From contig JAQTOC010000008.1 of the NCBI GenBank assembly GCA_028713535.1, forward strand, positions 1 through 32,316: a stretch of DNA of 32,316 nucleotides, written 5' to 3'. Source of the DNA: Candidatus Nanoarchaeia archaeon. Lineage in GTDB: Archaea > Nanobdellota > Nanobdellia > SCGC-AAA011-G17 > JACPNG01. The notes below the pieces were generated by a model, which did not search any database, was not told the origin of the DNA, and saw only the letters and a list, made by a program, of their open reading frames with translations. Positions within the stretch are counted from its first letter, which is position 1. Each line of letters begins with the position of its first letter. The position numbers were made by a program, and so were the translations under genes. This document shows, piece after piece, positions 26,553-29,511 of this stretch.

Positions 26553-26996
26553 TATCAGATCTTTTTCTGTATCTATTTCTTTGTTAAACTCAAACTCTTC
26601 ATTCAATCTTGAAACAATCTTGTTAAAACTTTGAGTTCTTTTTAATATTGAAAAAACAAAATTTTTTTTACAGACCCGTTTCATTTCACTGATTGCTTTA
26701 TTTATGTCTTCTACATTTTGTAAAACTGTGATGCATAGAACATTGTCAAAGGAATTATCGTTAAAAGGAAGTCTCTCAGCTCTGCCTAAAAAAGCATCTT
26801 CTTTGTTTTTTATTAATGCCTTGCAGGGATCAATGCCTATTACATTATCAAAAAACTCTCTTGAAATCAGGCTCCCACACCCCACATCAAGAGTTTTGCC
26901 TTTTAGATTAATGTTCTTTTGTATTATTTCAAACTTCTTTCTCTGTTCATTTCCATATAATTCTTCATAGCCCTCTATAGAAAGTTTATCATACAT
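26532..26996 (-). CDS. Class I SAM-dependent methyltransferase
   Basis: About 154 residues from MYDKLSIEGYEELYG. TLDVGCGSLISREFF is motif I (SAM-binding loop), VIGIDPCK the acidic residue after beta-2, and AERLPFNDNSFDNVLCITVL the motif II/III region, as in small-molecule methyltransferases of the Methyltransf_11 type. Short for the class (usually >200), so the C-terminal sheet is minimal. The track's 27044 start lies inside the MBL gene; the ATG at 26996 is preferred and overlaps that gene's end by 8 nt. Substrate unknown. Confidence 0.75.
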   Translation of the reverse strand: MYDKLSIEGYEELYGNEQRKKFEIIQKNINLKGKTLDVGCGSLISREFFDNVIGIDPCKALIKNKEDAFLGRAERLPFNDNSFDNVLCITVLQNVEDINKAISEMKRVCKKNFVFSILKRTQSFNKIVSRLNEEFEFNKEIDTEKDLILIKQVK

Positions 26997-27576
26997 TTTC
27001 GTATTCATGCCCTGGAGCAAGCACAATGTATGGAATCTCAGCAATTTTTGTTATTGATTCTTTAATTTTTCCTGGCACAGAGGTTGGTAAGTCTGTTCTG
27101 CCTAATGTCCCATTCTTGAATAATGTGTCTCCTGTAAATAAGACCGCATCCTCTTCATACCACAAACAGACAGATCCTCTTGTATGTCCTGGTGTTAAAT
27201 AAACTTTTATGCCATTAAACATATCAGGTAGCTTATTTAATTTGATGCCTTGCAATGTTTCAAAATTTTTTATGCATGTTTTTTCTGCAGCAAGATTATA
27301 GCTTAGAATTTCCTGTTCAGAAGCATAAAGCCTTGCATTAGGAAATTTTTTTGGGTCCCCGATGTGGTCATAATGCAAATGTGTATAGATTATATGTTTT
27401 ATTTTTTCTGCAGGAAACCCGATAAGTTTTAATGCTTTCATTATAATATCTGAATTTCCTTTCTGCCCAAGATCAATCAGGATTGGCTCTTCTTTGGTTA
27501 TTAAGTAACAAATGGAACTTGGTTCTAACGATCCCTGGATTGCCCAGACCGAATCAGAAATTTTTTTTGTTTTCAT
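26989..27576 (-). CDS. Metallo-beta-lactamase-fold hydrolase (glyoxalase II-like)
   Basis: 195 residues. THLHYDHIGDP gives the H-x-H-x-D-H metal motif; further ligands are in TPGHTRGSVCLWY, FTGDTLF and APGHEYEN. Such proteins hydrolyse thioesters (glyoxalase II, persulfide dioxygenase relatives) or act on other substrates. TATA (CTTATAAAGG) ~24 bp upstream. Overlaps the methyltransferase at its end and is divergent from the isc operon, which suggests a sulfur- or thiol-related role, though that is inference. Confidence 0.8.
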   Translation of the reverse strand: MKTKKISDSVWAIQGSLEPSSICYLITKEEPILIDLGQKGNSDIIMKALKLIGFPAEKIKHIIYTHLHYDHIGDPKKFPNARLYASEQEILSYNLAAEKTCIKNFETLQGIKLNKLPDMFNGIKVYLTPGHTRGSVCLWYEEDAVLFTGDTLFKNGTLGRTDLPTSVPGKIKESITKIAEIPYIVLAPGHEYENV

Positions 27577-27628: not shown

Positions 27629-27660
27629 TTTATATATCGTTAAGTTCACTATCGTGAACT
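27629..27660 (+). promoter_or_regulatory. Promoter and perfect-palindrome operator of the isc operon
   Basis: A TATA element (TTTATATATC, ~27629-27638) is followed by AGTTCAC-TATC-GTGAACT (27643-27660), a perfect 7-bp inverted repeat with a 4-bp spacer that ends exactly at the ATG (27661). With the usual ~26-bp spacing the transcript starts within the palindrome, so a bound dimer would block initiation. The regulator encoded immediately downstream is the obvious candidate, giving autoregulation. Not tested here. Confidence 0.68.
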
Positions 27661-28014
27661 ATGAAAACCACGCAAGAAATGGAAGTCTGGTATACTCTAC
27701 CCGCATTAAGGAAGCAGTTAACTATTGAGCTAAAAAGAATAGGATTATCTCAAACTGAAATCGCAAAGATACTATGTGTGAGACCCTCTGCTGTGTCTCA
27801 GTACATAAAAAATAAAAGAGCAACCAATTTTGAGTTTAATGAGGCTATAAAAAAAGAGATAAACAAGTCAGCAAAAAAACTCAAGGAAGGAACATGTGGC
27901 CTTATTGAAGAGTTAAATAGACTTTGTTTGCTTATAAGAAGGAATGGTCATTTGTGTAGTCTTCATAAACAAACCGAACCAACATTAAAAAACTGCAAAG
28001 CCTGTCTAAAATGA
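27661..28014 (+). CDS. HTH regulator with Cys-rich C-terminus, first gene of isc operon
   Basis: 117 residues. Residues ~13-57 form an XRE-type helix-turn-helix (GLSQTEIAKILCVRPSAVSQ, then YIKNKRATNF), and the tail has five Cys (79, 89, 99, 112, 115) and His97/His102: spacing C-x9-C-x9-C-x12-C-x2-C, suitable for Fe-S or Zn binding. Its own start abuts the palindrome, and its TGA overlaps the ATG of iscS. By analogy to bacterial IscR it would sense cluster supply, but the domain build is different from the Rrf2-type IscR. Similar Cys-tailed HTH proteins occur in archaea; I cannot confirm the family. Confidence 0.68.
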   Translation: MKTTQEMEVWYTLPALRKQLTIELKRIGLSQTEIAKILCVRPSAVSQYIKNKRATNFEFNEAIKKEINKSAKKLKEGTCGLIEELNRLCLLIRRNGHLCSLHKQTEPTLKNCKACLK

Positions 28015-29141
28015 GAGTCTACCTTGATAATGCGGCAACAACCAAAGTGGATGATGAAGTAATCAAAGCTATGAATCCTTACTTTAACAAAATTTATGGG
28101 AATGCATCTTCACTTCATTCTTTTGGAAATGAGGCAAAAAACGCACTTGAAAACTCGAGAAGGATAATTGCTGAAAAAATAAATGCAGACACCTCTGAGA
28201 TTATTTTTGTTGCATCAGGGACTGAAGCAGATAACCTTGCAATTCTTGGAACAGCATTCTTAAAAGAAAAAGGCCACATCTTAACAACAAAAATAGAGCA
28301 TCCTGCGGTTTTAGAGACCTGCAAAGAACTGGAAAAAAGAGGATTTCAGGTAACCTACCTGGATGTAGATAAAGAAGGATTTATCAAAAATTTTGAAGAT
28401 AATTTGAGAAAGGATACAATTCTTGTTTCTGTCATGCACGCAAATAATGAAATTGGAACTATCCAGAATATTGAGAGAATAGGAAAGATTTGCAGAGAGA
28501 AAAATATTGTTTTTCATTCAGATTGCGTTCAGAGTTTCACAAAAGAATCCATAGATGTAAAAAAGATGAATCTTGATTTGGCTTCATTTTCCAGTCATAA
28601 GATTCACGGCCCAAAGGGCGTTGCAGCATTGTACATCAGAAAGGGAATCAAATTAAAAAGAATAATTTATGGAGGCCACCATGAGCTTAATATCCGGCCA
28701 GGCACAGAAAATATCCCTGGAATAGTTGGTTTTGCTAAAGCCTCTCAGCTGTTAAATAAAAATGAAATTGAAAGAACAACAAAATTAAGAAATAAACTCA
28801 TTGATGGTTTGCTTAAAATTCCAGACACAAAGCTGAATGGAAGCAGGGAAAGAAGATTATGTAACAATGTTAATGTTTCCTTTAAGTATGTCGAAGGAGA
28901 ATCTTTGCTGTTGTACCTTGATGAAAAGGGAATTGCAGTTTCAACTGGATCCGCATGCTCTTCCCAGACACTCGAGCCAAGTCACGTCTTGCTTGCTATC
29001 GGATTGCCCCACGAGATTGCCCACGGAACAATAAGATTTTCATTAAGCAAGTATACAACAGAAAAAGAAATTGATTATACGATTAAGTCAGTAAAAGAGG
29101 TTGTTGAAAAGCTAAGGAAAATAAGCCCAATAAGGAGGTAA
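28011..29141 (+). CDS. iscS: Cysteine desulfurase (IscS/NifS)
   Basis: 376 residues, slightly shorter than E. coli IscS (404). It takes sulfur from cysteine and passes it as persulfide for Fe-S cluster and tRNA thiolation. PLP residues: YLDNAATTKVD, ASGTEADNLA, HANNEIGT and ASFSSHKIHGPKG (the K of SHK is the Schiff-base lysine). STGSACSSQ holds the active-site Cys of the mobile loop. ATGA overlap with the regulator, and iscU begins 1 nt after its stop, so the three form one operon. Confidence 0.92.
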   Translation: MRVYLDNAATTKVDDEVIKAMNPYFNKIYGNASSLHSFGNEAKNALENSRRIIAEKINADTSEIIFVASGTEADNLAILGTAFLKEKGHILTTKIEHPAVLETCKELEKRGFQVTYLDVDKEGFIKNFEDNLRKDTILVSVMHANNEIGTIQNIERIGKICREKNIVFHSDCVQSFTKESIDVKKMNLDLASFSSHKIHGPKGVAALYIRKGIKLKRIIYGGHHELNIRPGTENIPGIVGFAKASQLLNKNEIERTTKLRNKLIDGLLKIPDTKLNGSRERRLCNNVNVSFKYVEGESLLLYLDEKGIAVSTGSACSSQTLEPSHVLLAIGLPHEIAHGTIRFSLSKYTTEKEIDYTIKSVKEVVEKLRKISPIRR

Positions 29142-29142
29142 C

Positions 29143-29511
29143 ATGTACTCAGAAAGCATAATTAAAAGATTCAGAAACCCAAAATTTGCAGGCGAGATAA
29201 AAAACGCAGACGGGGTTGGAGAAGAAGGCAATATCAGATGTGGAGACATAATGAAAGTTTACATTAAGGTTAAAAATAATAAGATTACTGATGCCAAGTT
29301 TAAAACCTTTGGGTGTGCAGCAGCGATTGCAGCCTCAGATGCATTGTGTGAATTGTCAATAGGAAAAACAATAGAAGAGGCATTGAAAATAACAAAATCA
29401 GATATAATCAACTTGCTTGGAGGCGATGTACCGCCCATAAAACACCACTGTTCAATTTTAGGAGTTGAAACATTGCATAAAGCAATTGAGAATTACAAAA
29501 CTAAATCTTAG
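29143..29511 (+). CDS. iscU: Fe-S scaffold protein IscU/NifU-N
   Basis: 122 residues. The three conserved ligand Cys are present: RCGDIM, FGCAAAIAASD and KHHCSILG; the usual Asp next to the first Cys (CGD) is there, and the Lys-rich segment near the third (PPIKHHC) replaces the LPPVK of bacterial IscU. It assembles [2Fe-2S] on sulfur from IscS. SD-like GGAGGT just before the ATG lies in the last codons of iscS. The final 11 nt overlap the convergent trxB gene. No iscA, hscA/B or ferredoxin follows. Confidence 0.92.
   Translation: MYSESIIKRFRNPKFAGEIKNADGVGEEGNIRCGDIMKVYIKVKNNKITDAKFKTFGCAAAIAASDALCELSIGKTIEEALKITKSDIINLLGGDVPPIKHHCSILGVETLHKAIENYKTKS

Follow-up and report, generated by a model that had tools for sequence, protein, structure and literature searches.

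In DPANN archaea, the biogenesis of iron-sulfur (Fe-S) clusters is very probably regulated by a family of small operator-binding proteins, which combine a helix-turn-helix (HTH) of the XRE type with a tail of three conserved cysteines and a histidine (Cys3His). We read the representative described here, whose gene precedes iscS and iscU, as a dedicated, autoregulated regulator of Fe-S biogenesis that would repress its targets and hold a labile Fe-S cluster on the Cys3His tail, and we give this whole chain a probability of roughly one half. A preliminary description of the locus had proposed an IscR-like circuit built on an unrelated fold; comparative genomics supports this circuit well through linkage and operator, whereas the five conserved cysteines that were part of the proposal did not hold up.

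The window analyzed, 32,316 nucleotides long, corresponds to one contig (G000:C8) from an archaeal genome of 873 kb whose near relatives are labelled Nanoarchaeia/Woesearchaeota; an archaeal 16S rRNA gene starts at the end of the window. The regulator gene (27661–28014, plus strand) overlaps with its stop codon the start of iscS as ATGA (28011–28014). The latter encodes an iscS/nifS-type cysteine desulfurase (28011–29141, plus strand; PF00266; TIGR03402 at 518.5 bits, below the cut-off of 530.75) and is followed, 1 nt after its stop, by a gene for an IscU/NifU_N scaffold (29143–29511, plus strand; PF01592, 137.3 bits). Sequence and profile matches thus bear out the earlier account of a palindrome, an HTH gene, iscS and iscU in this order, with ATGA coupling. 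Downstream of iscS-iscU lies a convergent thioredoxin-reductase-like gene. Upstream of the regulator, a divergent gene encodes a metallo-hydrolase of the MBL fold (26989–27576, minus strand); such a gene adjoins the regulator also in both congeners and in locus L027, and it may have the operator region in common with the regulator.

The regulator, 117 residues long, matches the Pfam family HTH_3 (PF01381) with 30.5 bits against a gathering cut-off of 23. Its AlphaFold2 model is all-helical (mean pLDDT 90.6), with the HTH at residues 31–49 (27751–27807, plus strand) and the recognition helix at H42-49. No other ligand or sensory domain was found in the Pfam search or in the model. Searches of the PDB returned generic HTH matches only, both by sequence and by fold, the latter without a match at E<=0.001, so that no solved structure informs the cysteine tail.

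The five cysteines noted previously in this tail (C79, C89, C99, C112 and C115) are all present, but among 109 homologues conservation singles out three of them together with H102. C112 is kept in all 109, C99 in 108, C115 in 107 and H102 in 100, with cysteine in place of the histidine in 6; C89 (37/109) and C79 (6/109) are lineage-specific. The conserved set, C99-x2-H102-x9-C112-x2-C115 (27955–28005, plus strand), consists of putative metal or Fe-S ligands with conservation of 99, 92, 100 and 98%.

Homologues of the regulator are found in 29 of 40 near relatives and in 107 of 148 sampled genomes of the phylum. From a set of 109 non-redundant DPANN copies, two have no room downstream, and in 91 of the other 107 the gene directly next is one for Fe-S biogenesis: iscS in 50, sufB in 25, sufC and a DUF1858 gene in 6 each, a DUF1858-HesB gene in 2, and iscU and iscA in 1 each. 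Likewise, in an unselected sample, 85 genomes have both a full-length regulator and NifU_N, and in 70 of them the two genes share a strand and lie no more than 9 kb apart. By script, 16 of the 107 homologues have no such Fe-S gene within 700 nt, yet in at least 3 of these, iscS or sufB genes lie no more than about 1 kb away; in L044 and L121 an alpha/beta-hydrolase-like gene is followed by iscS, and in L122 iscS is directly next. Most other unlinked regulators form one group with similar tails (SKALCKIHxxxEExLxxCDICY) and no coherent downstream gene (L048, L057, L085, L087, L088, L089, L094, L101 and L103). Ten homologues were read in the phylum to which a Micrarchaeota-labelled genome belongs; most are much weaker, yet 8 of the 10 loci adjoin iscS-iscU, SufS-like or sufB/sufC genes. 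Finally, locus L042 (3972–5494) encodes an in-frame fusion of regulator and IscS of 507 aa, with an operator-like site upstream.

Two side observations concern these neighborhoods. A homologue from the Micrarchaeota phylum with the canonical ThiR-like form (L146) adjoins a frame of the ThiI-like sulfurtransferase type, a hint that sulfur metabolism may be a broader theme of the family. Furthermore, some NifU_N matches lie inside frames of 512–562 aa, some of them split in two (G032:C56, G124:C29, G154:C41, G120:C71, G107:C14 and G090:C18), suggesting inteins or insertions in IscU, and the SufB frames in several loci also appear to bear inteins.

The promoter of regulator-iscS-iscU contains a TATA-like box, TTTATATAT (27629–27637, plus strand), and many homologous loci have a TTTATAAA-like box that is similarly spaced. 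A perfect palindrome of 18 bp, AGTTCAC-TATC-GTGAACT (27643–27660), starts 14 nt downstream of the first position of this box and ends directly before the ATG at 27661. Given the usual archaeal distance from TATA box to start, transcription should begin inside the palindrome, which predicts a near-leaderless mRNA. The palindrome occurs as a single exact copy in the 873-kb genome; the next-best match (2 mismatches, C1:109089) lies inside a coding gene and was rejected as an operator.

This element is kept in position and sequence before the orthologous regulators, with the consensus TTMAC-N4-GTKAA. Of 108 regulator genes, 72 have the exact core TTNAC-N4-GTNAA upstream. Its density in the remainder of these loci would predict about 0.6 such cases, so its recurrence is above chance; about one third of the homologues have no exact core upstream. 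When the operator was scored, at least 11 of 12 positions agreed in 48 of the 108 upstream windows versus 19 of 2160 dinucleotide shuffles. The arms vary jointly, with A/T in 47 sites, C/G in 15 and mixed pairs (A with G or C with T) in 6. Among homologous loci, the operator typically follows the TATA box by 8–16 bp. Its commonest place is just downstream of this box and over the start site, sometimes including the start codon; its position relative to the start codon varies, and a few loci have more than one site.

The site also tracks the regulator genome-wide, its enrichment being confined to genomes in which the regulator is present. In 148 genomes, TTMACNATNGTKAA was counted with the reversed pattern as control. 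The 94 genomes that encode a full-length regulator have 190 sites versus 35 control sites, and the other 54 have 32 versus 28. This comparison is partly independent, as some of the loci from which the operator pattern was derived overlap the genome sample. Away from the regulator gene, operators precede sufC (G101, G038), sufB (G160, G130) and a DUF1858-HesB gene (G038). In the genome described here, the sole other exact TTCAC-N4-GTGAA lies in the promoter of the gene for an Fe/Mn superoxide dismutase (SOD), between a TATA-like box and the gene start (G000:C2:51618-51631; L152 1501-1514). The congener G001 has TTAAC-N4-GTTAA at the same place before sod, despite a TTCAC-type regulator. In the congener G002, an operator precedes a glutaredoxin gene (L212, G002:C1:279403), of which this genome has a counterpart with a degenerate operator copy (L259, G000:C2:49966), situated two genes upstream of sod. 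SOD was rejected as a general member of the putative regulon and is an occasional one, since just 3 of 30 SOD promoters contain the site.

Several further sites were noted in passing. A second TTCAC site in G002 was discarded because no long frame with a promoter-like start lies near it. Single operator sites before a ferredoxin gene, a radical-SAM gene and two FAD-oxidoreductase genes are leads rather than claims. Operators were also seen near genes for geranylgeranyl-reductase-like FAD proteins (L202 and L203, from G136 and G131) in two genomes that belong to one family.

On the protein side, operator type appears to be mirrored at residues 41 and 43, located where the recognition helix begins in the AlphaFold2 model. 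S43 together with a residue other than threonine at position 41 is found in each of the 15 proteins that have TTCAC operators, and in 1 of 47 proteins with TTAAC operators. This covariation is suggestive only, because the 8 parsimony changes on the operator-type tree include only 2 independent pairs on supported branches, which leaves it under-powered given the phylogeny.

From these observations we propose the following mechanism. At the head of isc or suf operons, the regulator would bind as a dimeric HTH protein to the palindrome TTMAC-N4-GTKAA that separates TATA box and start codon; unlinked suf, sod and glutaredoxin promoters would be reached in trans through the same site. On the palindrome, the dimer would block initiation and thereby establish negative autoregulation of regulator-iscS-iscU, keeping the regulator and iscS-iscU at a basal level that could be induced on demand. 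As the operator covers the initiation region, the protein is probably an autorepressor. With less certainty, the Cys3His tail would carry a labile Fe-S cluster supplied by the very system under its control, so that cluster shortage or oxidant damage would alter DNA binding and derepress the operon, as in the IscR loop. For the Fe-S cluster as effector we see about even odds: the stand-alone protein offers no sensory part besides this tail, and it targets cluster-making machines.

By itself, the Cys3His motif is not diagnostic of an Fe-S sensor, because C-x2-H...C-x2-C is also found in haloarchaeal ThiR-like proteins fused to ThiN. In these proteins, the motif suggests an ancestral, possibly structural zinc site, and with the same tail placed before ThiN, it would either predate the Fe-S role or serve more than one use. 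This makes zinc a serious alternative, if on balance an unlikely one: the protein would still be an operator-binding regulator of Fe-S operons, but its Cys3His set would be a structural zinc knuckle and the signal something else, for instance an interaction with IscS/IscU or a product-independent autoregulation that buffers expression. The zinc-knuckle-like spacing and the exchange of H102 for cysteine in 6 homologues fit this view, and the regulator-IscS fusion in L042 would suit a different signal. Such a signal, however, has no other sensory domain in the regulator to act on, and the strong linkage to Fe-S genes even in divergent homologues also speaks against this alternative.

Operators at SOD and glutaredoxin promoters could also point to a thiol or oxidant switch, in which oxidation of the conserved cysteines, with or without release of zinc, would join Fe-S repair to these two functions. 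We consider this improbable, given that the SOD sites are patchy and that the main targets are Fe-S genes. Less probable still is a regulator that activates, or that alternates between activation and repression. The variable place of the operator relative to the start codon and the few loci with more than one site would be compatible with such a role, but archaeal activators usually bind upstream of BRE/TATA, whereas the commonest place of this operator is on the other side of the TATA box. We thus retain the repressor with a labile cluster as our main reading. Its broadest form, a DPANN-wide family of Fe-S sensors with a ThiR-type XRE fold, a Cys3His-ligated cluster and a palindrome-defined isc/suf/sod/glutaredoxin regulon, amounting to an IscR-like loop of independent archaeal origin, is offered tentatively.

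If correct, this reading would provide one regulator family together with its operator and a candidate effector site, and would open a way to study how minimal symbiotic archaea keep Fe-S assembly in balance. No description of a dedicated regulator for the Fe-S biogenesis operons of archaea was found in the open-access literature, subscription journals lying largely outside the search, nor was anything on the family COG2522; absence from this literature is no proof of novelty.

Among known systems, IscR offers a close functional parallel on genomic evidence. Like IscR, the regulator is encoded by the first gene of an isc operon and has an operator at its own promoter, pointing to autoregulation; it has a candidate Cys3His ligand set, and its regulon touches suf and oxidative-stress genes. 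In contrast to the bacterial IscR, a member of the Rrf2 family, it has an XRE/HTH_3 fold and an archaeal promoter, and in Pfam it has no match to the Rrf2 winged HTH at E<=1, the best match being HTH_3. The ligands of IscR are three cysteines and one histidine with the spacing C-x5-C-x5-C-x2-H, which differs from the C-x2-H-x9-C-x2-C conserved here; in IscR they hold a [2Fe-2S] cluster through which DNA binding is altered.

Bacterial SufR is similar in being an autorepressor that heads a suf operon; Rv1460, for example, is described as repressing its own suf operon (PMC6034842). In the regulator described here, neither Pfam nor NCBIfam gave a match to a SufR-type (DeoR/ArsR-like) winged HTH. 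SufR belongs to another HTH family and has another ligand arrangement. With no Rrf2 or SufR-type domain found, the regulator works like IscR and SufR and belongs to neither, and would be their convergent partner. Among the archaeal thiol-based regulators, MsvR is likewise cysteine-based; it is described as redox-responsive and unique to methanoarchaea, in an abstract that mentions no link to Fe-S operons (PMC3729527).

By descent, the nearest relative is ThiR, the archaeal regulator of thiamine genes (PF0601 in P. furiosus; PMC10746257; see also PMC12029414), which has a homologous XRE HTH and the same C-x2-H-x~10-C-x2-C tail. Haloarchaeal ThiR-like proteins align with 98% of the length of the homologue L146. 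They are encoded on megaplasmids and have an HTH of the same kind, a C-x2-H-x10-C-x2-C tail and then ThiN; with one of their genes adjoining tenA genes, they look like ThiR-type thiamine regulators. ThiR thus differs in its C-terminal ThiN domain (PF10120) and, for one copy, in its location by thiamine genes, whereas the regulator described here ends after the Cys3His tail, without ThiN, and adjoins isc genes. It belongs with the N-terminal part of ThiR, and this link leads one to ask whether a metal or Fe-S center is present in ThiR proteins as well.
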